From positions 1 to 64,000 of the forward strand of contig JADCJN010000029.1 in assembly GCA_020247005.1 (NCBI GenBank): a stretch of DNA of 64,000 bases. The letters are read 5' to 3'. Below, one piece after another: positions 43,815 through 58,667 of the stretch. Each line of letters starts with the position of its first letter. The first letter of the stretch is position 1. Origin of the DNA: Silvanigrellales bacterium. GTDB taxonomy: Bacteria; Bdellovibrionota_B; Oligoflexia; Silvanigrellales; Silvanigrellaceae. The notes beneath the pieces are model-generated. The model saw only the letters and a list, made by a program, of their open reading frames with translations, made no database searches and was not told the DNA's origin. Both the position numbers and the translations under genes were made by a program.

Positions 43815-44783
43815 TCAGTCAGCGTCTTTGCAGTCCTTGAGCAAACGACAGGTGTTTTCGAAAACAATGCGGCGGCTGACTTGGGCAGCGTTGAAACCAA
43901 TTTTATCTGGATTGCCGAGCGTCCGCGCCACAGAGTGAGCAAGGAGCTCGCCCACAAGAGCCTCGCTGACAGTGCGGGCCATTTCTTTCGACAGAGCTTC
44001 AGCAAGTTCTTTACGCGAATAACTGTCTTTTTCGGGGGATTTCTTCGCAAGACGCACCACCGAACTCATCCACGGGTAGAGCTTGGGGGGTGCGAAACTC
44101 ACCAAGCCGTTTTTTCCCGCCTGCAAGCAAAAAACAGCAAATTCCTCTAAAAGTTGAGCTCGCGGCTTTTGAATGGAGCTCCCATATTTTTTGTCTTCAA
44201 CCACTTTCACCAGGCCAGACTGGTTCAAACAAAGGAAGATTTTTTCAAGGTATTCAGCCCGGCGCAACAAAACGAGCTCACACCGAGGCACAAAACCTTT
44301 CAAAGGGAAGAGTTCGACGCCTTCTTCGTTTATTGTGCCGAGCTTTACAAGGGATGCCAAAAACACAGCCATTTGCGAAGCGTGCTGAAAAGGCGTGCCC
44401 ACGCGGGCAACGAGTTTTTTTTCCTGGAGTTTCGCTTCGACGAGTTTTTCGTCCACGAATTTAAGACGTGCAATGGCATCTTTCAGAACAGCCTGTGCCC
44501 ACACAGGGACATCCTTGAGGCCCGTGTCGAGGCTGTCGACGTTGATACTCAACAGAGTCACCTGCGTGAGCGCACGCGCACTTGCCGAGCGGGAGTCTCG
44601 CGAAAAAATGGTGACCGTTCCAAGAATGTCGCCTGGCTGGCTGAATCCAAGAGACACCTGCAAACCGTCTCGCTCTCTGAAGATTTCAATTTTTCCCTCT
44701 TTCACGAAGTAAATTCCGCCACTTGGGTCGCCTTCGCGAAAGATCATTTGACCCGGTCCGTAGATCTCCGTTTCTCCTTTCAT
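43815..44783 (-). CDS. Cyclic nucleotide-binding domain protein
   Basis: 322 residues. Residues 8-115 are a cNMP-binding fold (IYGPGQMIFREGDPSGG, YFVKEGKIEIFRE, QPGDILGTVTIF, SRSASARALT). The phosphate-binding cassette lacks the usual GE pair (GTVTIF) but keeps the closing Arg-Ser-Ala. Residues 110-135 are a charged helix; the rest contains a second helical region that may be a winged helix (LASLVKLGTINEEGVELFPL). It is coupled to cheV: its ATG at 44783 overlaps the cheV stop (ATGA). Likely a cytoplasmic sensor acting with chemotaxis signalling. Confidence 0.85.
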   Translation of the reverse strand: MKGETEIYGPGQMIFREGDPSGGIYFVKEGKIEIFRERDGLQVSLGFSQPGDILGTVTIFSRDSRSASARALTQVTLLSINVDSLDTGLKDVPVWAQAVLKDAIARLKFVDEKLVEAKLQEKKLVARVGTPFQHASQMAVFLASLVKLGTINEEGVELFPLKGFVPRCELVLLRRAEYLEKIFLCLNQSGLVKVVEDKKYGSSIQKPRAQLLEEFAVFCLQAGKNGLVSFAPPKLYPWMSSVVRLAKKSPEKDSYSRKELAEALSKEMARTVSEALVGELLAHSVARTLGNPDKIGFNAAQVSRRIVFENTCRLLKDCKDAD

Positions 44784-45841
44784 GATGCCGCTCCAATAGG
44801 AAGCGCGAGGCCCGGAAGGGCCTGGCGGAGGGCCTCGAGGATTTCTTTTTTATTGAATTTCGAAACGTAGGCATCTGCGCCGGCTTTCACGGCCCGGTCG
44901 CGGTTTGCTTCGCCAGTAAGGCTTGAGTGAAGAATGATGGGCATCCCCTTGAGCGCAGCATGTTCCCTCATGCGTTTCACGAGCGAATAGCCATCGAGTC
45001 GGGGCATTTCCACGTCACTTATCATAATGGTCGAAGGGGGCAGGCTCGTTGTCGAAACGTAACTCCACGCCTGTTCGCCATTTGTGAACTCGCTGACTTC
45101 AACGTCGAGTTGACGAAGAAAGTCGATGAGCGCCCTGCGCGCCGTGGAAGAATCGTCGACAACAAGAACCAAAGGACGAGGCGCTGCCCCAGGGCCGCGA
45201 ACCGGAACAAACCCTCCCGCGCCGCCTTGACCGTAACCCGGGTGAGCGTTCACCCCCGAGGGATACGAATGCCCACCGGCAGCCGGTGAAACCACCTGTT
45301 TTCCGGCGCGGCGCGACTCAACGTCGAGAAGAAGGCGCTCGAAGTCGAGAATGAAAATGAACTCTTGGTTTTCCACAAGCATCATGCCTGTGATGAATGA
45401 GAACGCCTCTGAAGACGGGGGCAACACCTTGTCCCAGCTCACCCGGCGGATGCGGCGCGCGCTGCTGACAACAAATCCTGCCACACGGCGTGAGAATTCC
45501 GTCACAATAACCTGAGCACCGGGTCCAACGGGTTCGTCGGAAAGTCCCAAGGCAGCCGCGAGATGAATGGCGGGAATAGGCACGCCACGCAGATTGAACA
45601 CGCCCAGCACTTCGGGCGTGTTCGTGAGGCAGGGGGTGATGTCGGGCAACCGGATCACTTCCCGGACTTTAGCCACGTTGACTGCGAAAACAGTGGCTTT
45701 GCCCGCGGCATCTCGCTTCCCTTCGGCCCCGTCGTCAGCCAGCAGGGCGCGCGGTTTCACGAGCGGCTTTGCCGTCACGGTAAACTCAATGAGTTCGAAG
45801 AGGTTGCTGCCCACTTCAAGAAGTGGCTTGCCGATGCTCAT
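44780..45841 (-). CDS. cheV: CheV-type chemotaxis coupling protein (CheW-REC)
   Basis: 353 residues from MSIGKPLLEVG at 45841 (GAGGA upstream). Residues 10-170 are a CheW domain (VAKVREVIRLPDITP, GVFNLRGVPIPAIHLA, VTGMMLVENQEFIFILDFERLL-like block near 160). A Gly/Pro-rich linker follows (YPSGVNAHPGYGQGGAGG), then a receiver domain with VVDDSSTARRAL, acceptor Asp in MISDVEMPRLDG, HSSLTGE and Lys in VSKFNKKE. CheV links receptors to CheA and may buffer adaptation. No cheA is in the window. It is translationally coupled to the cNMP-binding protein. Confidence 0.92.
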   Translation of the reverse strand: MSIGKPLLEVGSNLFELIEFTVTAKPLVKPRALLADDGAEGKRDAAGKATVFAVNVAKVREVIRLPDITPCLTNTPEVLGVFNLRGVPIPAIHLAAALGLSDEPVGPGAQVIVTEFSRRVAGFVVSSARRIRRVSWDKVLPPSSEAFSFITGMMLVENQEFIFILDFERLLLDVESRRAGKQVVSPAAGGHSYPSGVNAHPGYGQGGAGGFVPVRGPGAAPRPLVLVVDDSSTARRALIDFLRQLDVEVSEFTNGEQAWSYVSTTSLPPSTIMISDVEMPRLDGYSLVKRMREHAALKGMPIILHSSLTGEANRDRAVKAGADAYVSKFNKKEILEALRQALPGLALPIGAAS

Positions 45842-46034
45842 GGGGTCCTCGCTTTTCGCACCATCTGACCCCTGTCTATCGGTAGACACCAAACCAACGT
45901 TGAGCCACCCTGCGGGCGGTTCGGGGCAGAGAATGTTCGTTCCTTGCCACTTGAGTGCAAAGATTGCCTTCAGCTACACTCTTCACTGTCTCACTGCGTC
46001 CTGGCCGTCGCCTCATCCAACAGAGGTCCCACTC

Positions 46035-46325
46035 GTGAACGTGTTCCTCGCCATGGTCCTCGACATCCTCATCTACGTGATTCGCATTTACACCTTTGTT
46101 CTTTTGGCTTCAGCCATTCTTCGGCTCGTTCGCGCCGATGAAACCAATGGCATTGTGAGGGTGGTGCATGCCCTCGCGGACCCTCCGGCTCGGGCCATCA
46201 CCCGTAAATTCCCAAAGCTTGTGGTGCGGAGCGGGCACCAAATCATCGACCTCGGGCCCATTTTGCTTCTGGTCGGCTTGGGCTGTGTGATTATTGCCTT
46301 GGGTCACCTCAAGAACGCCCTTTAG
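46035..46325 (+). CDS. YggT family membrane protein
   Basis: 96 residues from the GTG at 46035 (AGAGG eight bases upstream); ATG at 46053 is an alternative. Two hydrophobic segments (LIYVIRIYTFVLLASAIL and LGPILLLVGLGCVIIALG) flank a loop with the typical PPARAITRKFPK block (a variant of the family P-x-R-x-hP pattern). YggT proteins are small inner-membrane proteins of uncertain role, often near cell-wall or division genes. It precedes the coupled ABC/actin-homologue operon by 22 bp. Confidence 0.85.
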   Translation: MNVFLAMVLDILIYVIRIYTFVLLASAILRLVRADETNGIVRVVHALADPPARAITRKFPKLVVRSGHQIIDLGPILLLVGLGCVIIALGHLKNAL

Positions 46326-46347: not shown

Positions 46348-47112
46348 GTGAGCACACCTCCTCGAAGGTGGTCCTTCGGAGTGTTTTTGAGTCTGGTGGT
46401 GTGCGGCGGCATTTCTTGGGGGCTCCTTCCTGCCACTGCCAACGAAACAAAAGTCGTGGCATCGCACAGCGAACCCCTCTTTTTGAGACGAAACGTGTTC
46501 TTTGGACACCGGGAGCTGTCCGACATTCTCGAAGGGCTCAGCATTCTTTCACATGCCGTTGACGCCTTTCAAAATGCTCCGGCGCTCCGGCGGAACCCGG
46601 AACATGCGGTGCGCAAGCGGCTACAGGAAGCACTCACCGCCCTCCCCGCACTCGCCAAGCGGCGCATTGGAATGAGCGAAGCGTACACCCTTCCCGCCAT
46701 GTACTTTCTTTTCGAAGAAGACGCACCTGAAATGGCTTACACGCTGATACGCCATGGGCTTTCAGACACCCGCACCAACAATCAAGTGCCCCTTCTTGCG
46801 GGTTTCGTTGCGCACGTCTTCGCGCGCGATCTGGACGCAGCCGCCGAACACTATGCCGCACTCGCCGCGAGGCCAGACGTTCCCGAGTGGGTCGGAGACC
46901 TCGCCAGGCGCCTCAAGAGCTATGATGACCCCTTTGTCACCGACGAAAAAGTTCGCAACACCCTCTGTAAAGTCATGGCTCGCTCCTTTCCACGGGCTCT
47001 CCCTTTCCTCGAAAAGAACCGCCCAGAATGCCGTGAGGCCATCGCCAGTCTAGGTTCGGAAGCCTCAGACAACGCAACCTCACCGACCGCCGGAGGCGAC
47101 ACGACGCCATGA
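46348..47112 (+). CDS. Membrane-anchored hypothetical protein, first of the ABC/actin-homologue operon
   Basis: 254 residues from the GTG at 46348, set by GGGAGG seven bases upstream. One N-terminal membrane segment or signal (WSFGVFLSLVVCGGISWGLLP). The remainder is helical and TPR-like (YTLPAMYFLFEEDAPEMAYTLIRHGL; NQVPLLAGFVAHVFARDLDAAAEHYAALAARPDVPEW), so an anchored periplasmic scaffold is likely. No family recognised. Its stop overlaps the start of the ABC ATPase (ATGA), so it belongs to the same coupled unit. Confidence 0.8.
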   Translation: MSTPPRRWSFGVFLSLVVCGGISWGLLPATANETKVVASHSEPLFLRRNVFFGHRELSDILEGLSILSHAVDAFQNAPALRRNPEHAVRKRLQEALTALPALAKRRIGMSEAYTLPAMYFLFEEDAPEMAYTLIRHGLSDTRTNNQVPLLAGFVAHVFARDLDAAAEHYAALAARPDVPEWVGDLARRLKSYDDPFVTDEKVRNTLCKVMARSFPRALPFLEKNRPECREAIASLGSEASDNATSPTAGGDTTP

Positions 47113-47834
47113 AAAAGCAGAAAAATGCTTTGGGCGAAGCAGAGCAAGTTCCCATCCTCTTCGCCCAAGAGCTCGAAAAAATCGTCGAAAACAAGAACGT
47201 TTTCGAGGAACGTTCACGACGCACACTATGGAAAGTGGACTCGCTGCGCGTCGAGACTCCCGAATTCATCTGCATCGCAGGCCGCAATGGCAGCGGAAAA
47301 TCGACCCTTCTTCGGTGCCTCCTTGGACTTCAAGCTCCCACACGGGGGCGCATCGCTTGGTATGGGCACAGCGCGCTTTCGCACGACGTCCTAGGTTACC
47401 TTCCTGAGTTTCCCATCCTTCCGCCGGCTCTGCGTGTAGGCACTTTTTTAAGGCTCCTGTTGGGTCGCGATGTGGACGAAATGCTTTCGGAACGTAACGG
47501 CCTCCTGGCACGTTTCACTCGCCTCTCTGTGAAGGAATTCCTCCACGTCCCCGCGAATCGACTCTCGAAAGGTCAACAACAGCGTGTGCTCCTGTGGTCG
47601 GCCTTAGCCCGCGCGCCAAAAGGCCTCGTGCTCGACGAACCCTTTTCAGGCCTCGACCCCTGGGCACGCGTTGAACTGGCGGAGCTTCTGGTTGCCTTGA
47701 AAGAAGAGCATGGCCTTTTTATCCTCATGTCGACTCACGAGCTGCCACGCGCACTGAGAGCATCGTGCGCGCGCACTTGGCTCATTGAGAGCGGAACGCT
47801 TCTGGAGCGTTCTGGCTGCGCCTTGCCGGAATAA
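47109..47834 (+). CDS. ABC transporter ATPase (ABC-2 type)
   Basis: 241 residues. Walker A GRNGSGKST, signature LSKGQQQRV, Walker B GLVLDEPFSGLD and H-loop STHE are all present. The N-terminal 45 residues are longer and more charged than in standard ATPases. It is coupled to the membrane protein upstream, and the permease gene follows after 24 bp. It drives the adjoining ABC-2 permease; substrate unknown. Confidence 0.92.
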   Translation: MKKQKNALGEAEQVPILFAQELEKIVENKNVFEERSRRTLWKVDSLRVETPEFICIAGRNGSGKSTLLRCLLGLQAPTRGRIAWYGHSALSHDVLGYLPEFPILPPALRVGTFLRLLLGRDVDEMLSERNGLLARFTRLSVKEFLHVPANRLSKGQQQRVLLWSALARAPKGLVLDEPFSGLDPWARVELAELLVALKEEHGLFILMSTHELPRALRASCARTWLIESGTLLERSGCALPE

Positions 47835-47858
47835 CCCCGCCCTTCGAGGTTGCTTGCT

Positions 47859-48689
47859 ATGTCTCGTTTTGAGCTCCGTTGTCCACTCTCGCTTCGACTT
47901 TGTGTCCTGACTTGGCTCGAAAATCTGCGAGGACAAGTGGTCTGGATAGCCTGCGGGGTGGGTGTTCTTATTCTCTGCGCAGTGGCCGTTCTTTCTGGTG
48001 CCGCACTTTCACATCAAGAAAGACTTCTTGATGTGTCAACCTACTTCTTTATCGATGCCACTCTTTTTCTCACTGCTTTATTCATGGGATCTCAAGTCTT
48101 TCCTCGCGATTTTTCAAACCGTGGACTTGCCGAAATACTTGTTCCTGGGGGGTTTCCAAAGTCACTTTTGTTTCTTTCACGCATGGCAGGACATGCAACA
48201 CTTCTTGTGGCTCTTGGGTTGGTCTTGTTCTTGTTCCGACATGCCGCGTTTGCGCTGGCCGACAGCTCTGTTGCAGCAAGCATTGCCGTTACCCCACTCA
48301 TGTTGATCCTGAGTGCCTTGAAACTCACCCTCACTCTTTGCGTATCGGCCTTTTTTGGCATTCATACTCGCCCTGTGGTGGCCATGCTGGGAACCCTCGC
48401 TTTGTTCCTTTTCGGTCATTTCTCGAGCGGTGTTTCGGGGCTTCGCGGGCTCGCCGACGATCCGGAAAGGCTCGTGTCTGGCGAACTCGCCTTTCTGTTC
48501 CAATTTTTTCGCATTTGGAATCCGAACTTTCTCGTGCTCGAAAGTTTTCAAGGCGTGTGGGAATCGCCTCCTGGCTCGGAACTCGCCCTGCGCGTTGCAT
48601 GGGGAGCGAGCGCCATCGCCTTTTTTGCTCTCGTGGGTGCTGTTTCCGTGCAGATGAAAGACGTTTCGAATCTGCAGGCGAATTCATGA
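47859..48689 (+). CDS. ABC-2 type transporter permease
   Basis: 276 residues from ATG 47859 (GAGG upstream); TTG at 47850 is an alternative. Six hydrophobic segments, the first being VVWIACGVGVLILCAVAVLSG; the layout of a short cytoplasmic start, the extended FPRDFSNRGLAEILVPGGF segment and a C-terminal helix (AWGASAIAFFALVGAVSV) fits single-subunit ABC-2 permeases such as those exporting lipids, glycans or small proteins. The MreB-like gene start overlaps its stop (ATGA). Confidence 0.85.
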   Translation: MSRFELRCPLSLRLCVLTWLENLRGQVVWIACGVGVLILCAVAVLSGAALSHQERLLDVSTYFFIDATLFLTALFMGSQVFPRDFSNRGLAEILVPGGFPKSLLFLSRMAGHATLLVALGLVLFLFRHAAFALADSSVAASIAVTPLMLILSALKLTLTLCVSAFFGIHTRPVVAMLGTLALFLFGHFSSGVSGLRGLADDPERLVSGELAFLFQFFRIWNPNFLVLESFQGVWESPPGSELALRVAWGASAIAFFALVGAVSVQMKDVSNLQANS

Positions 48690-49858
48690 AGGGCGACCAC
48701 GGACTGGGCCTTTCCCTCGACCTAGGGACAACCAATGTGCTGGTGCACTGCAAACGCCGAGGCCTTGTTGTGGACGACAGCACCGCTCTCGCCATGCGAG
48801 ACGCGGGCCGCCTGGGCCCGGCCACGGTCGTGGCAGCGGGTTGGGCCGCCGAAAAAACGGAAGGAAGAACCACACACAACGTCCATATCATCAGGCCCCT
48901 GGCGCGTGGCATGGTTGCCGACGCTCACGCCGCATCAACACTTCTCTCAATCTTGGCAACCCTGGCGGCCAAGTCGCCTGCCCAGCAAATTTCTGCCGAG
49001 GCAGAGTCGTTTTTGCAAAGGTGGAACCCCTTTCAATGGAGCGACGGCATTGTTGTGTCGGTTCCCTTTGGGGCAAGCTCACTTGAAGCACACGCTTTTG
49101 TGGAAGCCGCACGGGGCTTGAACAAAAACGCCATGGGTCTGTTTGGACCACGCACCGTGCGTCTTGTGTCTGAACCCATGGCTGCAGCTCTTGGTGAAGG
49201 ACTCGACGTCCATCAACCAGAAGGGGTCCTTGTGGTTGACGCGGGCAGCGGCATCACAGAGGCCGTCCTGCTCTCGCTGGGGGCTGTTGTCGCGGGCGCA
49301 TCGTTGCGACTGGGTGGCCGAGATTTCGACGCAGCCATCGTACGTTACCTTCGCGCACGGCACGGCCTTGTTGTTGCAAACGATGTTGCGGAGCGTTTGA
49401 AAAAGACAGTCTGCCGGGCGCGCAGAGGAGCGGACGCGAAGTCAGGCACCTTGGCTCAGGTGGAAGTCTGTGGACTTTCGGTGCGCGACAGGCGCCCCGT
49501 TCGGATTCTTGTGCCACAAGAAGAACTCTCAGCCTGCCTCGACGACCTTGTCGACGCCATTTCCCTTCTCGCGGTCCAAGTCTTGAGTCGTGCCTCTCCC
49601 GACCTGGTGAGCGACGTTGGCAAAAATGGACTCCTGGTGACAGGCGGGCTTTCCCTGCTTCCAGGCTTCGTGGAAGCGCTCGGCATGCGAGCAGGCGTCA
49701 CTGCAAGGCGCGCTCAGGCGCCATTGCGCAGCGTCATTCAGGGACATGCGCGCATCCTCGAATCAAGCGATCTTCAGACACTGTGTACCTTCAGCCCAAC
49801 AGAGTGGTGTCGGGAACGGCCACGCGAGAACCATGTGAGGGACACGGGGCGCTCATGA
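48686..49858 (+). CDS. MreB-like actin homologue
   Basis: 390 residues. It follows the actin/Hsp70 ATPase plan of MreB: phosphate-1 LSLDLGTTNVLV (near residue 9), connect-1 EPMAAALGEGL, phosphate-2 VVDAGSGITEAVLLSLG, SLRLGGRDFDAAIVRYLRARHGL and adenosine motif LVTGGLSLLPGFVEAL. Differences from cellular MreB: phosphate-2 DIGGGT is DAGSGI, a 25-residue insert (AKSPAQQISAEAESFLQRW) lies in subdomain IA, and the tail is longer. The start at 48686 overlaps the ABC permease stop, so it is a divergent paralogue tied to a transporter rather than the mreBCD cell-shape gene. Its stop overlaps the start of a 32-codon stub. Confidence 0.88.
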   Translation: MKGDHGLGLSLDLGTTNVLVHCKRRGLVVDDSTALAMRDAGRLGPATVVAAGWAAEKTEGRTTHNVHIIRPLARGMVADAHAASTLLSILATLAAKSPAQQISAEAESFLQRWNPFQWSDGIVVSVPFGASSLEAHAFVEAARGLNKNAMGLFGPRTVRLVSEPMAAALGEGLDVHQPEGVLVVDAGSGITEAVLLSLGAVVAGASLRLGGRDFDAAIVRYLRARHGLVVANDVAERLKKTVCRARRGADAKSGTLAQVEVCGLSVRDRRPVRILVPQEELSACLDDLVDAISLLAVQVLSRASPDLVSDVGKNGLLVTGGLSLLPGFVEALGMRAGVTARRAQAPLRSVIQGHARILESSDLQTLCTFSPTEWCRERPRENHVRDTGRS

Positions 49859-49953
49859 CCCAGGAGCACCCTGGCTTAAAATGCGCTCGCCCGTCATCGA
49901 CTCCAGAGGAAGCGGGGCTGGGATTTTCCCTGGACCTCGGGTCAACCAGCTGA
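49855..49953 (+). pseudogene. 32-codon stub resembling the N-terminus of a second actin-like protein
   Basis: The ATG at 49855 overlaps the MreB-like stop (ATGA), exactly as the other genes of the operon do. The reading frame runs through MTQEHPGLKCARPSSTPEEA (residues 1-20) and ends GLGFSLDLGSTS before TGA. The last 12 residues closely match GLGLSLDLGTTN, the phosphate-1 segment of the upstream MreB-like protein. Coding then stops and an A+T-rich stretch with a divergent lipoprotein gene begins. Best read as the remnant of a tandem actin paralogue whose body was lost, perhaps by insertion or deletion at about 49953. A functional 32-residue peptide is less likely. Confidence 0.7.
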
Positions 49954-49988
49954 AAATACTCTATTTAATATTCGTCGCCTAGGCACTC

Positions 49989-51056
49989 TCACAGCAGGTC
50001 GAGCTCGAGGTCCTCATCCCCGTCGTAAACCTCAATTTTTTTGATCTCAGAAAAGTCGTTCTTGCCATCCATATACATGTTCGCAGGCGAGGCGCCCCCT
50101 CGTCTAAGCTTCGAAAAAAAGCCATCGGACTTTTTCTCCCCGACGAGTTCATTCAACCTGTCACAACAATCAATGATTTCTGTATCGGCCCTCGTCTTTA
50201 GCCATCGTGGAAGACTCGAGTCACGCCCATTGACTTCCCACTCAATCGCGTCCCACTTCTCTTCCTCTGACTTTTTCTCACGTTCAAGAATGTGATCCGT
50301 GAGAGCTCTAATTTGAGTTTCTTTATCCATGTATCTATAACTATCGATAAACATCCTCGCCCTCTCGTGACCAGACTCAACCGCTTTATCTTCTGAGGTA
50401 AGACTCATCTCATTCCGCCTAACATGAATTATGGAGGTAGAGTCGGTGAGGAGAGCCAGATTCTCTTGCGCAAGAAAGGGCCGGCCCCTGACGCACGCAT
50501 GTTCACCGACCAAAGCATGCAACATGGAACGGGTTTTCTTTGTGTTGCGCCCCACAAGAAGTACGGCACTCTTTTCGCGTTTGGACGCCACGTGCACTCC
50601 AAAGAGGCCCACTTCCTCAAAAATTTCGCCACATGCCCTGATCTCTTGGTCCTCCAACAGGGAGTTTCGGATGGTAAATGACTGCGCCACAATGCGATTC
50701 TGACTCAATTCACCTTGAACGCATGCGAATTTTTCGGAGTTCCATGATTCTACCTTCAAGGAAGGAGGCAGACCTGTTCGAAAAGTGACTTCCACATACC
50801 GATCTCTCCAGTTTCGAGAAGCACCAAAGGCCTCAGAGATTCTCGTTTCTGTTTTCCAATCCGTTCTTAAGAAAAGCAACGGAACTTCCTTGGCATTTTC
50901 ACGCGTGGAAAAGGGAGATCCACAGATCTCAAATGGCCCGAAAGTTGAAAAAGATCGAGAGACACCATCATTCATACTTCTGGATTTGCAAGACTCAATA
51001 ATCGGGAGCAAAACCATGCCAAATAAACAGACCCATTTTCTTCCCGAAAAAAGCAT
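49989..51056 (-). CDS. Putative lipoprotein of unknown function, low G+C
   Basis: 355 residues from ATG 51056 (GGAG seven bases upstream); a TTG four codons earlier overlaps the ribosome site. Lipobox IIESC. The middle and C-terminal parts are charged and helical (LTDHILEREKKSEEEKWDAIEW; ends YDGDEDLELDLL). No family recognised. G+C is visibly lower than in both neighbours, and the gene lies directly behind the truncated actin stub, pointing to acquisition or to an orphan gene in a rearranged spot. It points the opposite way from the ABC/actin operon. Confidence 0.75.
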   Translation of the reverse strand: MLFSGRKWVCLFGMVLLPIIESCKSRSMNDGVSRSFSTFGPFEICGSPFSTRENAKEVPLLFLRTDWKTETRISEAFGASRNWRDRYVEVTFRTGLPPSLKVESWNSEKFACVQGELSQNRIVAQSFTIRNSLLEDQEIRACGEIFEEVGLFGVHVASKREKSAVLLVGRNTKKTRSMLHALVGEHACVRGRPFLAQENLALLTDSTSIIHVRRNEMSLTSEDKAVESGHERARMFIDSYRYMDKETQIRALTDHILEREKKSEEEKWDAIEWEVNGRDSSLPRWLKTRADTEIIDCCDRLNELVGEKKSDGFFSKLRRGGASPANMYMDGKNDFSEIKKIEVYDGDEDLELDLL

Positions 51057-51110
51057 GAAAGACTCCAATTTCTCAAACTAGTATGGCCTCAATTTGTACC
51101 ATGTGTTAGC

Positions 51111-52493
51111 TCAGGGCATTTGCCACATCGCTTGGGGACGTCTGCCTTCGAGCTCGGGGGGGGGCGAGAGCATAAAAGCGGGTCGGTTGAGTGCGAGCGC
51201 CAAAAAAGAGTCTGCGCGCAGCCGCCCAAAGCGGGAAACGATGCGGTTGGCAAGTGGCATTGCGTGAGCTTCGAGACCTTCTCCTGCATACGAGTTCTGA
51301 CTTGACGCAGCGAGATCAAACAGCGCATCGCGTAAAGTCGCTCCCGGGAACACACCGAAGTAAGTGGCGAGTGCGGCTCCCACCACAGGAACGGCAAAGC
51401 TCGTACCCGAAAAGTAATCGAAACTTCCTTCCTTGTTCGAAAGCGGTAAGTTTACACCTTGCGCTGTGACGTCGACACTCGTGCCGTAATTGGAAGAATA
51501 CGCGCGACGCAGCATTGAAGAGTGGTTTCCCACAACCAAAATATTTTCGAGATCGTAGCGCGCCGGAAAAAGAGGATTCCCGTCGAGACTTTCTCCGGCG
51601 TTGCCTGCGGCCGCAATGAACACCACTCCTTTCGCGGCGGCTGCGGCAATCACGGCCTTTTCCGTGACACGAACCTGCTCGGGCAAAGTGCCTCGATAGG
51701 AAAAGCTCATGTTGACGATGCGAGCTCCACGAGCCACGGCTTCATCGAGTGCGACGGCAAGCTGCAGAGCACCAAACGTCTCGGAAAGCTCGTCTTGCCT
51801 GTCGCCCGCGAAGCTGATTTTTATCGAATGAAGCCTCACGTTAGGAGCGTAACTGTTCAGAATTTGCCCTTTCCATTCCAATCCTGAATACAACGATGCA
51901 ATGGCAGTGGCATGGTTTTGCCACTCCTCTGGAATGGGGCTTTGCGTGTAGTTGGTGACTTCCACTAGGGCATCGCCAATGGCACGGGTCGATGCGACAA
52001 CACCAGAATCGATGATGGCCACTCGGACAGGCTCAAGACCCGCCTTTTGCCTGTCGAGCATGGCGGGAACAAGGTCGAATCCGGCTTCTAGGTAAGTGGG
52101 TACGGGAGGGGCATTGCTCGATACGACACTTCTTGGAGAGCCCTGGCGCCAGGTCTTCGAGGCCTTTGCAACGAGTTCGCGAATACGCGTGCTTTCTGTG
52201 ATGTTGCCAAGCCCCATGGTTTCGTCGGTGCGCCGCAAATACACAAGCCCAGGAACCGAACGAAAGCGATAAACCACCTTCGTTCCTTTCTCGGCAAGTT
52301 GGGCATCGGTGAGAGTGGTGTCGACCACGCGGCCTTTGAAAGGCAGAACATCAAGGAAGCGCTCGGGAGCGTCGACCACTCCACACCCGGAAAAGCACAC
52401 GAAAACTGCGGAAGCTGAGACCAAAGCGCAATTTTTCAATGTGCGTGAAGGGGAAAAGAAAGCGAGGAGGTGGAGCCCTCTCTGAATCCGCAT
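51111..52493 (-). CDS. Subtilisin-like serine protease (S8), lipoprotein
   Basis: 460 residues, lipobox FSGC (Cys near 37). The S8 triad is traceable: Asp in VAIIDSGV (near 160), His in NHATAIASL (near 194) and Ser in FSGTSFAVP (near 363), with the oxyanion Asn in AAAGNAG (near 299). The His motif has Ala where the family has Gly (HGTxVA). The 120 residues before the Asp motif are probably a propeptide. The last 60 residues are a poorly conserved tail. It would act on the outer or periplasmic face. Ribosome site is weak, and a 16-bp palindrome lies 22 bases upstream. Confidence 0.9.
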   Translation of the reverse strand: MRIQRGLHLLAFFSPSRTLKNCALVSASAVFVCFSGCGVVDAPERFLDVLPFKGRVVDTTLTDAQLAEKGTKVVYRFRSVPGLVYLRRTDETMGLGNITESTRIRELVAKASKTWRQGSPRSVVSSNAPPVPTYLEAGFDLVPAMLDRQKAGLEPVRVAIIDSGVVASTRAIGDALVEVTNYTQSPIPEEWQNHATAIASLYSGLEWKGQILNSYAPNVRLHSIKISFAGDRQDELSETFGALQLAVALDEAVARGARIVNMSFSYRGTLPEQVRVTEKAVIAAAAAKGVVFIAAAGNAGESLDGNPLFPARYDLENILVVGNHSSMLRRAYSSNYGTSVDVTAQGVNLPLSNKEGSFDYFSGTSFAVPVVGAALATYFGVFPGATLRDALFDLAASSQNSYAGEGLEAHAMPLANRIVSRFGRLRADSFLALALNRPAFMLSPPPELEGRRPQAMWQMP

Positions 52494-52514
52494 GGTTGCG
52501 CCCCCGAACCGTGC

Positions 52515-52530
52515 CCCGTGCGCGCACGGG
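52515..52530. promoter_or_regulatory. 16-bp perfect palindrome upstream of the S8 protease gene
   Basis: CCCGTGCGCGCACGGG, spacer-free, 22 bases before the start codon of the minus-strand protease gene. It could be an operator, or in the transcript a hairpin close to the ribosome site. Confidence 0.4.
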
Positions 52531-52628
52531 AAACACGGACTCTCACTGTCACGTTGCTGTTCCTTTCAAGTCTAGGCGGGTCTGTCTCCACCACGGAGCG
52601 GCGTTGGGTGAAATGTTGACGCTTTCCT

Positions 52629-55600
52629 TTAAGAAACTCGAAGTCCAGGCGCAACGTCATCGTCGCCCACTAAAAAAACGCACAAACATCGCAACGACCC
52701 TGCGCTGTTCGACCCACCCAGCCCATCTGCTTTTACAAACGACTCGGCACCATGGGGCAACAGAAGGCGAGGAAGCGCACCTGCATGCACCTTCACGCCA
52801 TACATTCCCGTGGCAGGGTCCGCAGGAGGCTCTTTGCGAGGGCTTTGCAAAGAAGCAAGGTAACGTTCGAGGAAATCGGCTCGCGTAAACGAGGGAAGAA
52901 GTTCGCATGAAGCTTCATCGGTGGCGAACATCCAGCCCGCTTGGGAACCCAGGGAACGCGCCCTTTCGCGGTACACCAGTTTGCCGCCTCGAATGGAAGC
53001 GACTTCATGCAAAAACTCATTTTTCACCTGGGCTGAACCCGTGAAACTAAAACGTTCGGTGCCAAACATGCCTTCAATCGACGTGCCTTCTTTTGGCGCG
53101 ACCAAAACAAAACCGAAAGCGAGATCGTCGAACGACTTCAGATTTGGAAAACCCTCAAACAGCGAAGCGATGTCGGAGGCGAGCCGGAGCGCGAGCGATG
53201 CCATGCGCGGGGTCTCTTGCCGCGAACGCGACGACGCGACAAAAAACTCAACGTGACGCGCCAAGAGCTCATCGAGTCTGGCCACGTCTTGCTCTTGGGC
53301 TTTGCGGCCCTCGCTCCGCTCGGCCTGAAGATTCCACTGAACAATAAGAAGTCGGCCATGCGGAAGTGCGTGGACTTTGACCTTTGCCCTTTCAGAGGTG
53401 GCCGAAGGAGAATTGAGGCCTGATGCCTCGACAATAATGCCCTGCGCAAGTTCTCCATCCACCAAGTCACTTTCGAGGGTGCGCGAAAGTCTCGATTCTT
53501 GCCCAGCCGAGGAAGAGGCCAAGGACGACCCCGTGGGCAGCGGAGTCATGGCTTTCCGCGTTGCCGACTGTGGGTGTGTCGAAGGCGGTGGTGGCATCCG
53601 GGTGTCTTGTTTCTGGAAATTGCGCACAAGATAACCGCAATGGAGGCCCAGCAAGACGAGGTCTTGTTCAACGTCCAGTCGTGAATACTGATGCACCGTG
53701 GTGCCAGGCAAAGCGATCCAACCCAAGAGGTTCTTTCCAAACGTGATGGCCACAGCCACGAGGCACTGGGGCTCTCCATTTCGTTGTCCTGACGTCGCTT
53801 TTTGATTTTGGGGAATGTGAGGTTTGTGACGTCCATGGGGCGATCTCTGTGACACCATGGAACGTGGAGCGGTCGAAAACCCAACGGCAGCCGGACGGGC
53901 TGTCGACGACAACGAAGGCGCATGGCCCAGAGGGCCAGCCACCGTCGGCGCGGAGGAGAGGGCAACAGAAACAGGACGAGCCACTGTGTGTGATGTCGCA
54001 TCGGCCAAAGAGGGCTGCTCACGAAAAGCATGCTCTCTTGCGTCGTCGAGAGGGACGAGCTTCACAGCCTCATCAAAAGTCCGCGTGAGAAGGCGCGCCA
54101 TGGCCTGCTCCGAAAGAAACCCCTCTCGTGCAGGTGCGTTTGGAGCCAGACTTGCGTGTCCGTCATGGGAATGGAAACGGCAGACGAAACGAGCGCGCCC
54201 GGAGCCGTCGGTTTCCAGAAGGAACACGGCGACCTGCGGGAGTCCCAAGGCTTTCGAAGCAAGGAGCGCACCTTCCTTCACAAGACTCTCAAGGGAATCT
54301 TTCTCGGAAAGTCGCTGCATGCCTGCAAGGAGTCCGCCTGCGGCGAGAAGGGACGAACGGCCCGAGGGGCCTGCCCCTGCCGAACGTCCAGCGAAAGAGG
54401 ACTGCACGCTCTTTTCGTCGACATCAAGGTCGCCAAGTTCGAGCTTCACGCGCTTGGCAAGGCCCTCGATTTGACGCTCCAAAAGCCGCCAGCCCGAGCC
54501 GCGTGCCGTGCGGTGTGCCGTCAAGAAATGTTCTCGTGCACGCGAGAGTTTCATTTGCCCGCAGAATGTACCTAGGATCACAAGACTCAGGGCTTCCAGG
54601 AGTTCGAGACGCTGCGCGCGCGATTCCGAAACGGCTTTTCCAAGCCGTTCCAGGGCATCCTTGCGGTCGCCCGACATGTACGCCAGGAATCCCTGGAACA
54701 GGGGAGTCATAGCGCCACGGCGAGGATTGTCGCGCCCTTCGGCAGGACGAAGTCGCGCGTCAAGAGCGAGAAGGTGAGTGCGCAGCCCGCTTCCCCAAGG
54801 CCAGCCGCGTGCCTGAGAGCCCACGGCGAACAAGGGCAATAGGAACGCGGCGAGCCGGAGGCCATCGGAGACAGGAAGCGAGATGACGCTCGGGCGCGCT
54901 TGTGCGACGCTCTCAAGTGCTGCGTGGTACTTTTCGAGGGATTCTTTGTGACGCCCCGAAACAAGCGCGTGGAGCGACGAAGCGAAGTGCGAAAAGGCTT
55001 CACCAATGCTCGTGGAGCGTTCCTGCCTGCGAAGCTGCTCAGTGGCGCGTTTCAGGGGCTCGAGCTTGTCGAAGAGCGCGTATCGCAAGGCATCTGAAAA
55101 GAGCGCCAGTGCCGTGTACTGGCCGTTCTCACCTGCGTCGAGAACGCGCCTCGCATTTTGATTTTCGAGCAGAAGTTCTTGGGCGCCTGCGGGCGTCTTG
55201 AGCCCATCGGGCCCTCCTTTCGACTTTTGAGCCTCCAAAAGGGCTCTTTCCTCCTGGGCAACCTCGAGTCGCCTGCGGTGCGCGGCCGCGCGGGCGTCGC
55301 CATTCTCGTCGACTTTCCGACGGCGCCTCTGCTCGCCAGCGTCTGCGGCTTTGGCCACTGAGCTTGAAGGCGACAAAAGGCGCATCCAAGAGCGCAACGC
55401 TCCACTTTCAAAGTGCAGCAAACCCGATGTGGGAAGTTGTGACTCCTTGGAGTGTTCAAGCAGGGCCAGAAGGCGATCGGTTCGGCCAAGAGGATAGTCG
55501 AGCCAAAGGGCTCGCAATGCTCGAGCCCATCGCAAGGCGTCCCCGTGTCCGCGCGACTCAAGGTAACGCTCCACTTTCTCGGCTGTTCGGTAGCTCTTCT

Positions 55601-58600
55601 CAACCACGCCTCCCCGAAGATACAACGCGGCTTCTATCATCGCGTAGACGGCCGTCCAACGCGACGAGGGCCGGCGCAGCACCTGCGCACGCAGGCCAAA
55701 GAACACGGTGTCCTCGACGGGTTCCTCGACGCCATGAAGTTCTGCGAGACCCTTGAGAGCGAGTGCCTGCAGGGCGACTTCCGGGGTCCCTTTCAGCCGA
55801 AAAAAAGTGAGCACGAACGAAACGAACCACCCTTGGAGTCGCGTCCCGAAAAGACGGAGATTCCACTCCGCAAGTGTTTGTTCCAAAGCACTGCGCGGGA
55901 GAATCCCGTGACGGACAAGCACATCGGTGGCTTGCCCGTGCGCCTTCACGTGTCGACCAAGAGCGAGGAGGAGCTGCGCCCAGAAGGTTTTGAGCAACTC
56001 CTTTTTCCCCACATCGTCGGTGATGGCAATGAGCTGCTGGCACACATCGGAAGCCGCAACAAGATTCCCCGAGGCTGCGTGAATAGAATATTCGGCTTCA
56101 AAAACCTCACGCAGCCGGACAACTCTCTTTTCATCGTCTGCAATTTCGCGCGCGCGGGAAAGGGTTTTCTCGATGTAGTACTTGGCGAGATTATGCCCTT
56201 GACCTCGAACATGAATGCGCACGGCTCGCAGAAAAGCACGCGTCGCGGTGTCTGCGTCCACCAGATCTCCAGCGCCATCATAATGCTTTGCGAGCAAGAG
56301 CACCTGTTCGCGCCGGGGATTCTTGTAAAGGCTTTCAATGTGACGCGCGAGTGCAAGATGAATTTCTCTTCTTGAAGCACCGTCGGTTGCCTGCAGAACC
56401 GCATTGCGGATCTTTTCGTGCCCGTAAACAAAGGCAACTCGCTGAATGGGGCCAGCGGGGTCTCCGATGGGCTCAAGGAAACCTCGTCGCACCAAGGCAG
56501 GAAGGCGCGACTCCAGTTCCTTTCTAGAGAAGTCGGGATCCATGCGGAAAAACTCGAATTCGCAGGCCTCGTGCGAGACCGCTGCAATGCGCAGGAGCCT
56601 CATGTCGCGGTTGTCGAGAGCCTCAACCTGGCTGATGATCATTTCAATATTAACGAGGCCATTGTCCATTTCGGGAACAACATCCCAGTCGACAAAAAGC
56701 TCGTATCCACGCGGCAACGACGGGTCGCGCCTCACCAATAGGGCGTTTTGCGCCAACATGAGCTTGAGGAGTGCATGCAATTGGAGGGGCGTTCCAGAGG
56801 TCTTGCCAATGACGAATGAAACAAACTCCCGCGAAGGTGCGAGGCATCCCATTTCAATCAAGAATTCTTCAACGCCGCATTCATCGAGGCTGCCAAGATC
56901 CCAGCACTGAAAGCGCCGACGCAAACCACCCACGCGTCGCAAGAACCCTTCGAGGACAAGATTCGATCGTGGAAGCTTGTCACGCATCGTCATGAGAATG
57001 GTGAAACCCACAGGCTCGTTCACCTGTTCCGCCATGAATTGAAGAAGTGCGAGCGTCGAAGAGTCGGCGAGGTGGACGTCATCGAGAAGGAAGACGAAAT
57101 GTCCACTTTCCTGTGCGATGCTGGTGATGAATTCCAAGAACGCTTGGTTCATTCGCGCATTGGGTGCCGCGTATCGGCGCGCATCGGGCGAGGCTTCCAG
57201 AGCGCCGAGTTCCGTATCGGGGGCCTCTTCGGCAACACTTTCGTGGCTCAACGGTCGCGGCACTCGGCTTTCTGCAGGCAAATGCGAAACGAGCGAGCGC
57301 AAAGCGGGCAACAATCCTGCCAGCGCAAGAACACCCTCCTCGCCAAGTCGGCGACGCACGGCCTCAGTCAAGGTGCGGTGACGCACGGGGTCGTATCGCT
57401 CCATGTGCATGAGGTGGTCGTTTAAGCACAGCGACAGGGCTTGAAAAGGAAGGCGTTGTTCCGACTCCGAGAACCTCAAGGAAATATGATGCAGGTCGGT
57501 GTGTTCCAAGCGCGAACGAACCTCCTGCATCACGCGAGACTTTCCGACTCCCACCCCGCCGCGGAGCATGCCCCAAGACAGGCGAGAAGCACGGCTCCCT
57601 ACATGACGCATCACGAACTGGAAAACACTTTCCGTGAGCTCTTGCCGGCCGACGTAGACGCGGTTGAAGAGCGTGCCAAGGCCGATGTCTTTTGACGCCA
57701 GTTCGAATTCTTCAAGGGTTCCGACGTTGCGCAACGACGTTTGAAGGCGCCGCAGATCGCACACGAGTGCAAACATGCTCTGGTAGCGATTTTCGGGGCG
57801 CTTTTCTATGCATTTGCGAACAATATCTTCCAAAATGCGCGGCACATCGTGACCACGCACACTCCGCAGGGCTGGCGGTGGTGTTTCAACGTGCGCGCGC
57901 ATCATTTCGTGAGGCTTCAGATCGTGAAAAGGCGTTTTTCCAGCAAGGAGTTCATACGCCACGACGCCCAGTGAGTAGACGTCAGAGCGGGCGTCCACAG
58001 GCCAATCCACGAGCCCTGTCGCCTCTGGCGGCATGTAGCTGTATGTGCCCACAACTTCGCCAGGCGAAACTCCGGGCGCAGCGACAGGAGTCCCCAGGGG
58101 CGCTCCCGGAGGCCCTCCCGAGGGATTCGGGACAACCTCTTTCGACACGTCGCCCAAACGTGCGACGCCAAAGTCCACAATTTTCACCTGCTGGCGATCG
58201 CGGTCTCCATACCGCGCGTTTCCTTGTGCATCTGCCACCAAAATATTCTGCGGCTTAATGTCACGGTGAACAATATTGTGCCCATGGACATATTCGAGCG
58301 CCTCTGCCGCCTGCACCAAGATTTCAAGGATGTCCGTGAGGGGCAGTCGCCCACCGCGCACTTTGACATGTTCGCGCAGATTCTGGCCTGCCACGTACTC
58401 CATGACGATGTAGTAACAACCCATTTCTTCACCAAGCTCATAAACCGTGACCACACCCGGATGAACAAGTTGACTCATGAGGACCGCCTCACGCTGAAAG
58501 CGCAGGTATTCCTCCGATTTGACGCCAGGGTTCTTGTTCAGGAGCTTGATGGCCACTGGTCCACTGCCTTCAGCGCCCATGCGAACGGCACGAAAGACCG

Positions 58601-58667
58601 CGCCGAAGCCGCCGCGGCCTATTTCCTCGAGCAGTCGGAAGGTGTTGTCGAGAACGGTCTCGCGCAC
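52629..58667 (-). CDS. Giant Ser/Thr protein kinase with AAA/TPR-like and GAF-like regions
   Basis: 2,012 residues from the GTG at 58667 (AAAGGA upstream). Kinase domain residues 10-320: GRGGFGAVF, Lys in PVAIKLL, HRDIKPQN, DFGVAR; the activation segment carries a 35-residue Pro/Gly insert before the PE of MPPEA. An AAA_16/STAND-like ATPase follows: Walker A GGVGVGKSR (near 370), Walker B FVFLLDDVHLAD (near 525). Then a long helical region of TPR character (about 700-1430), a GAF-like region (LVKEGALLASKALGLPQVAVFLLE ... LVAVAITFGKNLLGWIALPG, about 1460-1700) and a C-terminal part of unknown fold. This plan is common in Myxococcota- and Bdellovibrio-like genomes. Cytoplasmic signalling hub; partners unknown. 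Confidence 0.92.
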   Translation of the reverse strand: MRETVLDNTFRLLEEIGRGGFGAVFRAVRMGAEGSGPVAIKLLNKNPGVKSEEYLRFQREAVLMSQLVHPGVVTVYELGEEMGCYYIVMEYVAGQNLREHVKVRGGRLPLTDILEILVQAAEALEYVHGHNIVHRDIKPQNILVADAQGNARYGDRDRQQVKIVDFGVARLGDVSKEVVPNPSGGPPGAPLGTPVAAPGVSPGEVVGTYSYMPPEATGLVDWPVDARSDVYSLGVVAYELLAGKTPFHDLKPHEMMRAHVETPPPALRSVRGHDVPRILEDIVRKCIEKRPENRYQSMFALVCDLRRLQTSLRNVGTLEEFELASKDIGLGTLFNRVYVGRQELTESVFQFVMRHVGSRASRLSWGMLRGGVGVGKSRVMQEVRSRLEHTDLHHISLRFSESEQRLPFQALSLCLNDHLMHMERYDPVRHRTLTEAVRRRLGEEGVLALAGLLPALRSLVSHLPAESRVPRPLSHESVAEEAPDTELGALEASPDARRYAAPNARMNQAFLEFITSIAQESGHFVFLLDDVHLADSSTLALLQFMAEQVNEPVGFTILMTMRDKLPRSNLVLEGFLRRVGGLRRRFQCWDLGSLDECGVEEFLIEMGCLAPSREFVSFVIGKTSGTPLQLHALLKLMLAQNALLVRRDPSLPRGYELFVDWDVVPEMDNGLVNIEMIISQVEALDNRDMRLLRIAAVSHEACEFEFFRMDPDFSRKELESRLPALVRRGFLEPIGDPAGPIQRVAFVYGHEKIRNAVLQATDGASRREIHLALARHIESLYKNPRREQVLLLAKHYDGAGDLVDADTATRAFLRAVRIHVRGQGHNLAKYYIEKTLSRAREIADDEKRVVRLREVFEAEYSIHAASGNLVAASDVCQQLIAITDDVGKKELLKTFWAQLLLALGRHVKAHGQATDVLVRHGILPRSALEQTLAEWNLRLFGTRLQGWFVSFVLTFFRLKGTPEVALQALALKGLAELHGVEEPVEDTVFFGLRAQVLRRPSSRWTAVYAMIEAALYLRGGVVEKSYRTAEKVERYLESRGHGDALRWARALRALWLDYPLGRTDRLLALLEHSKESQLPTSGLLHFESGALRSWMRLLSPSSSVAKAADAGEQRRRRKVDENGDARAAAHRRRLEVAQEERALLEAQKSKGGPDGLKTPAGAQELLLENQNARRVLDAGENGQYTALALFSDALRYALFDKLEPLKRATEQLRRQERSTSIGEAFSHFASSLHALVSGRHKESLEKYHAALESVAQARPSVISLPVSDGLRLAAFLLPLFAVGSQARGWPWGSGLRTHLLALDARLRPAEGRDNPRRGAMTPLFQGFLAYMSGDRKDALERLGKAVSESRAQRLELLEALSLVILGTFCGQMKLSRAREHFLTAHRTARGSGWRLLERQIEGLAKRVKLELGDLDVDEKSVQSSFAGRSAGAGPSGRSSLLAAGGLLAGMQRLSEKDSLESLVKEGALLASKALGLPQVAVFLLETDGSGRARFVCRFHSHDGHASLAPNAPAREGFLSEQAMARLLTRTFDEAVKLVPLDDAREHAFREQPSLADATSHTVARPVSVALSSAPTVAGPLGHAPSLSSTARPAAVGFSTAPRSMVSQRSPHGRHKPHIPQNQKATSGQRNGEPQCLVAVAITFGKNLLGWIALPGTTVHQYSRLDVEQDLVLLGLHCGYLVRNFQKQDTRMPPPPSTHPQSATRKAMTPLPTGSSLASSSAGQESRLSRTLESDLVDGELAQGIIVEASGLNSPSATSERAKVKVHALPHGRLLIVQWNLQAERSEGRKAQEQDVARLDELLARHVEFFVASSRSRQETPRMASLALRLASDIASLFEGFPNLKSFDDLAFGFVLVAPKEGTSIEGMFGTERFSFTGSAQVKNEFLHEVASIRGGKLVYRERARSLGSQAGWMFATDEASCELLPSFTRADFLERYLASLQSPRKEPPADPATGMYGVKVHAGALPRLLLPHGAESFVKADGLGGSNSAGSLRCLCVFLVGDDDVAPGLRVS

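Follow-up and report, generated by a model that had tools for sequence, protein, structure and literature searches.

A divergent MreB-like actin overlapping the end of a conserved yggT-TPR-ABC operon in a Silvanigrellales genome

Permeases of the NosY type, known from the NosDFY complex, are thought to transmit force to periplasmic partners. Among bacterial actins, MreB of Caulobacter crescentus uses Glu140 and Thr167 to position the attacking water (PMC9597168; see also PMC9195046), and the corresponding hydrolysis motif is present in 95.8% of MreBs outside Spiroplasma (PMC9597168). Spiroplasma MreB3, in which the motif is absent, polymerises but releases Pi slowly (PMC9597168). A hydrophobic membrane loop of MreBs has been described as well (PMC9195046), and in Bacillus subtilis the MreB paralogue Mbl is needed for FtsEX/CwlO (PMC3817527).

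Here, a window of 64,000 nucleotides, the whole stretch of DNA analysed, was examined in the genome of a Silvanigrellales bacterium, in which an MreB-like gene directly follows the genes of an ABC transporter. The features of the locus are:

46035..46325, + strand, membrane protein of the YggT family, opening the conserved module (Pfam PF02325, E 6.2e-10)
46348..47112, + strand, TPR-like protein P0001, anchored or exported, GTG start (translation, hydropathy)
47109..47834, + strand, ABC ATPase P0002 (Pfam ABC_tran 2.7e-21, intact ABC motifs)
47859..48689, + strand, ABC-2 permease P0003 with NosY-like fold (AlphaFold2 model, Foldseek, Pfam matches of orthologues)
48686..49858, + strand, divergent MreB-like actin P0004, 390 aa (Pfam MreB_Mbl 1.6e-65)
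48690..52628, no strand, segment missing in relatives, with most of the actin, a stub and two further genes (synteny)
48968..49045, + strand, domain I insertion codons AKSPAQQISAEAESFLQRWNPFQWS, residues about 95-120 (alignments; exact register inferred)
49238..49261, + strand, phosphate-2 motif DAGSGITE, Ile at the catalytic threonine position (alignments)
49855..49953, + strand, 32-codon actin stub (DNA match to the actin start, tblastn)

The original prediction, made from the letters alone, had described four genes in a row from the TPR gene onward, joined by two ATGA overlaps and one gap of 24 bp, and the translations confirm each of these details: the overlaps lie at 47109-47112 (TPR/ATPase) and 48686-48689 (permease/actin), and 24 bp separate ATPase and permease. 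A third ATGA (49855-49858) links the actin to a fifth open reading frame. Since yggT ends 22 bp upstream of the TPR gene, the run truly begins at yggT (46035). No terminator-like site was found in a scan of the permease/actin junction, such scans being weak evidence.

P0004 matches the Pfam family MreB_Mbl with 221.6 bits (gathering score 27), but stays below the NCBIfam cut-offs for MreB, with 196.8 versus 365.75 bits for TIGR00904, about half of the required score, and 220.8 versus 293 bits for NF010539. The ordinary MreB of the same genome, encoded on contig C249, reaches 522.5 and 527.1 bits, respectively; both this gene and mreC (contig C233) lie away from the window locus. Both by sequence and by Foldseek, P0004 matches MreBs best, with MamK and actin ranking behind, and its identity to MreBs is about 30-36%. 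In the AlphaFold2 model, confidence is low over domain I (mean pLDDT 61). Alignment confirmed both peculiarities that had been named beforehand, i.e., the DAGSGI phosphate-2 motif and an insert in domain I. Thr167 of C. crescentus corresponds to Ile190 in P0004, which consequently lacks the complete hydrolysis motif E140...T167-X-[D/E]169, while phosphate-1, the catalytic Glu163, Glu192 and the glycines of the adenosine motif are retained. Because the catalytic Glu and the Glu two residues beyond the threonine site are kept and the Thr itself is lost, slow ATP hydrolysis is predicted; Thr191, next to Ile190, may compensate for the loss. The N-terminus, MKGDHGLGLSLDLG, has no amphipathic helix. 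According to the alignment, an aromatic insertion (FLQRWNPFQW) sits where other MreBs carry their hydrophobic membrane loop. The hydrophobic moment of this enlarged loop is unremarkable within the protein, and a reading of the insertion as an amphipathic helix was dropped for this reason. Judged by its sequence, P0004 is a truly specialised MreB paralogue, distinct from the ordinary MreB of the genome. A specialised paralogue had been proposed originally, and the scores below the NCBIfam cut-offs, the separate ordinary MreB and a position outside the ordinary MreBs in the tree all bear this out.

Three further diverged paralogues, sparsely scattered through the class, were detected, the nearest in genomes G006 and G012 and a weaker one in G046:

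G006 L021:6926-7969, second diverged MreB, Ile at the Thr167 site
G012 L022:7075-8118, second diverged MreB, Ile at the Thr167 site
G046 L182:991-2013, second diverged MreB, Ile at the Thr167 site

These three and P0004 are the four paralogues with Ile at this site, which is Thr or Ser in every other MreB of the set. The G046 paralogue emerged from a search with a DNA pattern encoding the motif D-x-G-x-G-I-T-E, two further matches of which, in G002 and G150, were discarded, as they are not actins. In G006 and G012 the paralogue adjoins a plsB-like gene and in G046 it lies beside unrelated genes; ABC genes of the window type are found next to none of the three, and a profile search for the permease gave no match in any of the eight genomes of genus g5, which include G006 and G012. 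Searching contigs with P0004 alone returned no relative, and the three-paralogue alignment returned MreBs of the ordinary type. Viral contigs gave no match to the actin, and plasmid and phage records yielded distant MreB-like matches only (about 30-34% identity). Nothing closer than about 36% was present in 192 genomes from the phylum of a Bdellovibrio-labelled record; the eight best matches from these genomes are ordinary MreBs with GGGTTE. In the tree, whose comparison with MreB had been suggested originally as a check, P0004 does not fall within the ordinary MreBs of the phylum and groups with the second MreB of G006, that of G012 and, once added, that of G046 (support 99/97 and 98/92). The shared Ile substitution agrees with this grouping. 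The branch of the window actin is 5.7-6.5 changes per site long, and the grouping of the Ile-type paralogues may be a case of long-branch attraction. Removing the long branches one by one did not settle where the remaining one belongs, and in BLAST P0004 is no closer to the paralogues than to ordinary MreBs of other phyla. A tree in which the paralogues with Ile are forced to join the MreBs of the phylum is not clearly rejected (p-AU 0.055), so they may derive from an old duplication within the phylum.

The fifth reading frame, originally taken for a further overlapping gene start, turned out to be no gene. It translates into 32 aa, MTQEHPGLKCARPSSTPEEAGLGFSLDLGSTS, followed by a stop codon, and was rejected as a gene: its last 12 residues, GLGFSLDLGSTS, match the phosphate-1 motif of the actin, GLGLSLDLGTTN. 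A local DNA match between the stub and the start of the actin gene covers 34 bases (score 38, whereas 300 shuffles reached 28 at most), tblastn within the window finds the stub match with 75% over 12 residues (E 0.018), and the differences in the shared 12 codons are mostly synonymous. Neither additional actin sequence 3′ of the stub within the window nor a further copy elsewhere in the genome was found. The stub is best read as the remnant of a tandem actin-like paralogue truncated after the phosphate-1 motif, i.e., the broken beginning of a second such gene. Adjoining it is a gene on the reverse strand (49989-51068) without a Pfam match, with a GC content of 0.47 versus 0.58 in the window, which may be a trace of the event by which the second actin lost the rest of its sequence. 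A subtilase-family (S8) protein (51111-52493, reverse strand) also lies within the segment missing in relatives.

With one copy already cut down, the actin itself could be a duplicated, relaxed gene on its way to being lost like the stub, in line with its extreme branch length, the missing catalytic Thr and the low similarity in domain I. However, its frame is open over 390 codons with a normal GC content of 0.61, it scores 1.6e-65 against MreB_Mbl, it keeps phosphate-1, Glu163, Glu192 and the adenosine-motif glycines, and the codons shared with the stub differ mostly at synonymous positions. We thus regard decay as unlikely.

Turning to the transporter, the TPR protein P0001 has a hydrophobic N-terminal segment at residues 9-27 (hydropathy) preceded by RR and, on this account, is probably periplasmic; if so, contact with the actin would be possible only via the permease. 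The window TPR protein and permease have no Pfam match of their own. Distant orthologues of the former match TPR models weakly, and six permease orthologues match ABC2_membrane_2 (3.5e-15). The ATPase P0002 shows 37-48% identity to its family relatives, and its Walker A (GRNGSGKST), signature (LSKGQQQ), Walker B (GLVLDEP) and H-loop (STHE) motifs are intact. Modelled with good confidence by AlphaFold2 (pLDDT 84.8, pTM 0.84), the permease has the NosY chains of NosDFY as its top Foldseek matches (E 8.5e-4, TM-scores about 0.6-0.75). In terms of the permease model and the intact ATPase motifs, P0002 and P0003 are a NosFY-like pair, a permease of NosY-like fold with its partner ABC ATPase. NosD, NosL and NosZ were not seen in the operon; the neighbours in the loci inspected are YggT and the TPR protein.

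The TPR protein and the permease were sought in 58 genomes of the phylum, a set which represents a single class, and the TPR protein was matched in 22 of them (E<=0.01). The order yggT, TPR, ABC ATPase and, on contigs long enough to include it, permease recurs in five further family genomes and at nine loci of distant families, the loci with the conserved operon being L047, L049-L059, L061 and L062. In several of the distant loci, a yggS-like gene comes before the module and a small HNH-type protein after it. All five family genomes (G001, G002, G003, G005, G007) have the module without the actin, and no second actin was found anywhere in them. G002, G003 and G007 share with the window a syntenic block around the module, and in these complete blocks no actin follows the permease: the gap from permease to kinase is 23, 7 and 0 bp, respectively, versus 3939 bp in the window. 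This Ser/Thr kinase (52629-58667, reverse strand, 2012 residues), which adjoins the module in the three genomes, contains an AAA-type ATPase region. In G001, a small cysteine-containing protein comes after the permease (read by eye). Divergent from yggT, a CheW-response regulator fusion and a cyclic-nucleotide-binding protein (43815-45892, reverse strand) are kept in place in family relatives. By its gene order, the ABC module is an ancient, class-wide envelope operon without a named function and independent of the actin. YggT, originally read as fitting an envelope role, is a real, conserved neighbour, but of the ABC genes and not of the actin. The module deserves study by itself.

A segment of 3.9 kb missing in all relatives, in an assembly of 291 contigs, might have been misjoined into the operon. 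Yet the actin overlaps the permease in an exact ATGA, and syntenic genes flank the segment on both sides on one contig of 78.7 kb, which makes an assembly artefact highly improbable.

The central claim of the original prediction was that an actin filament or ATPase controls the exporter, and conservation of the neighbourhood across relatives had been set beforehand as its test. The claim was not supported: the ABC genes are kept without the actin in G002, G003 and G007, G001 and G005 have no second actin, and the related actins occur without the ABC genes. Because each of these relatives has the transporter or an actin of this kind but never the two together, their combination has the look of a recent, local arrangement and not of a conserved exporter driven by actin, the genus of the window, g1, being represented by one genome in the comparison. 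Control of the exporter by the actin is possible, and comparative genomics lends it no support. A lineage-specific version would have the ABC pair recruit the actin, which, as a filament bound to the membrane, would position or gate the pair, comparable to Mbl with FtsEX/CwlO in Bacillus, a precedent for an MreB paralogue supporting an ABC-type complex (PMC3817527). The ATGA overlap, which could favour co-translation and complex formation, and the junction free of terminator-like sites fit this, as does the specialised nature of the actin, whose membrane loop is altered. So does the NosY-like permease, given the force transmission to periplasmic partners proposed for this type. Against it, the overlap is found at one locus only, the module is kept without the actin across the class, and related actins occur without the module; recruitment is therefore rather doubtful. 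Bolder still is a genus-specific, actin-steered machine, once with two tandem actins, in which translational coupling ties a hydrolysis-slowed MreB paralogue to an ABC pair of NosFY type that may transmit force; this we consider quite unlikely. Should the coupling turn out to be functional, a bacterial actin and an ABC complex would be linked directly.

The explanation we favour as the probable one is a co-expressed MreB paralogue, probably slow in hydrolysis, at the 3′ end of the conserved yggT-TPR-ABC operon and acting independently of the transporter. Among the genomes compared, a fast-evolving MreB paralogue as the overlapping 3′ gene of an ABC operon occurs in this genome only. The actin would be a late addition to the operon, translationally coupled to the permease; it would fold as MreB and bind ATP, and its hydrolysis would be slow or nil without the catalytic threonine. 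As it has no amphipathic helix at its N-terminus, the actin would attach to the membrane via the enlarged aromatic loop and most likely form a stable membrane-bound filament, or possibly act as co-polymer or brake of the ordinary MreB. It would share with the ABC genes their expression only. The Ile-type paralogues offer natural variants to test whether MreB-like filaments outside Spiroplasma can dispense with ATP hydrolysis.

Compared with MreB (Pfam PF06723; C. crescentus 4czf/4czj), P0004 shares the actin fold, the phosphate-1 sequence DLGTT, the catalytic Glu and the adenosine motif, but differs in the change of Thr167 to Ile, the domain I insertions, the absence of the N-terminal amphipathic helix and the lack of mreC nearby. 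It resembles Spiroplasma MreB3 (7e1g) as a diverged isoform without the E...T-X-[D/E] motif coexisting with active MreBs (PMC9597168). However, the two are not closely related in sequence, and in SpeMreB3 the two sites are occupied by Asp and Lys and an amphipathic helix is present, whereas the window actin keeps Glu and exchanges Thr for Ile. FtsEX-CwlO with Mbl is a functional precedent, since an MreB paralogue acts there with an ABC-type complex (PMC3817527). Unlike that system, the window operon contains no hydrolase gene. FtsX is, moreover, a permease of a different type from that of the window. Closest to the transporter is NosFY of NosDFY (7o0y, 7znq): the fold of the window permease matches NosY, and the ATPase of a distant class member matches NosF among other ABC ATPases, but the partners in the window operon are a TPR protein and YggT.
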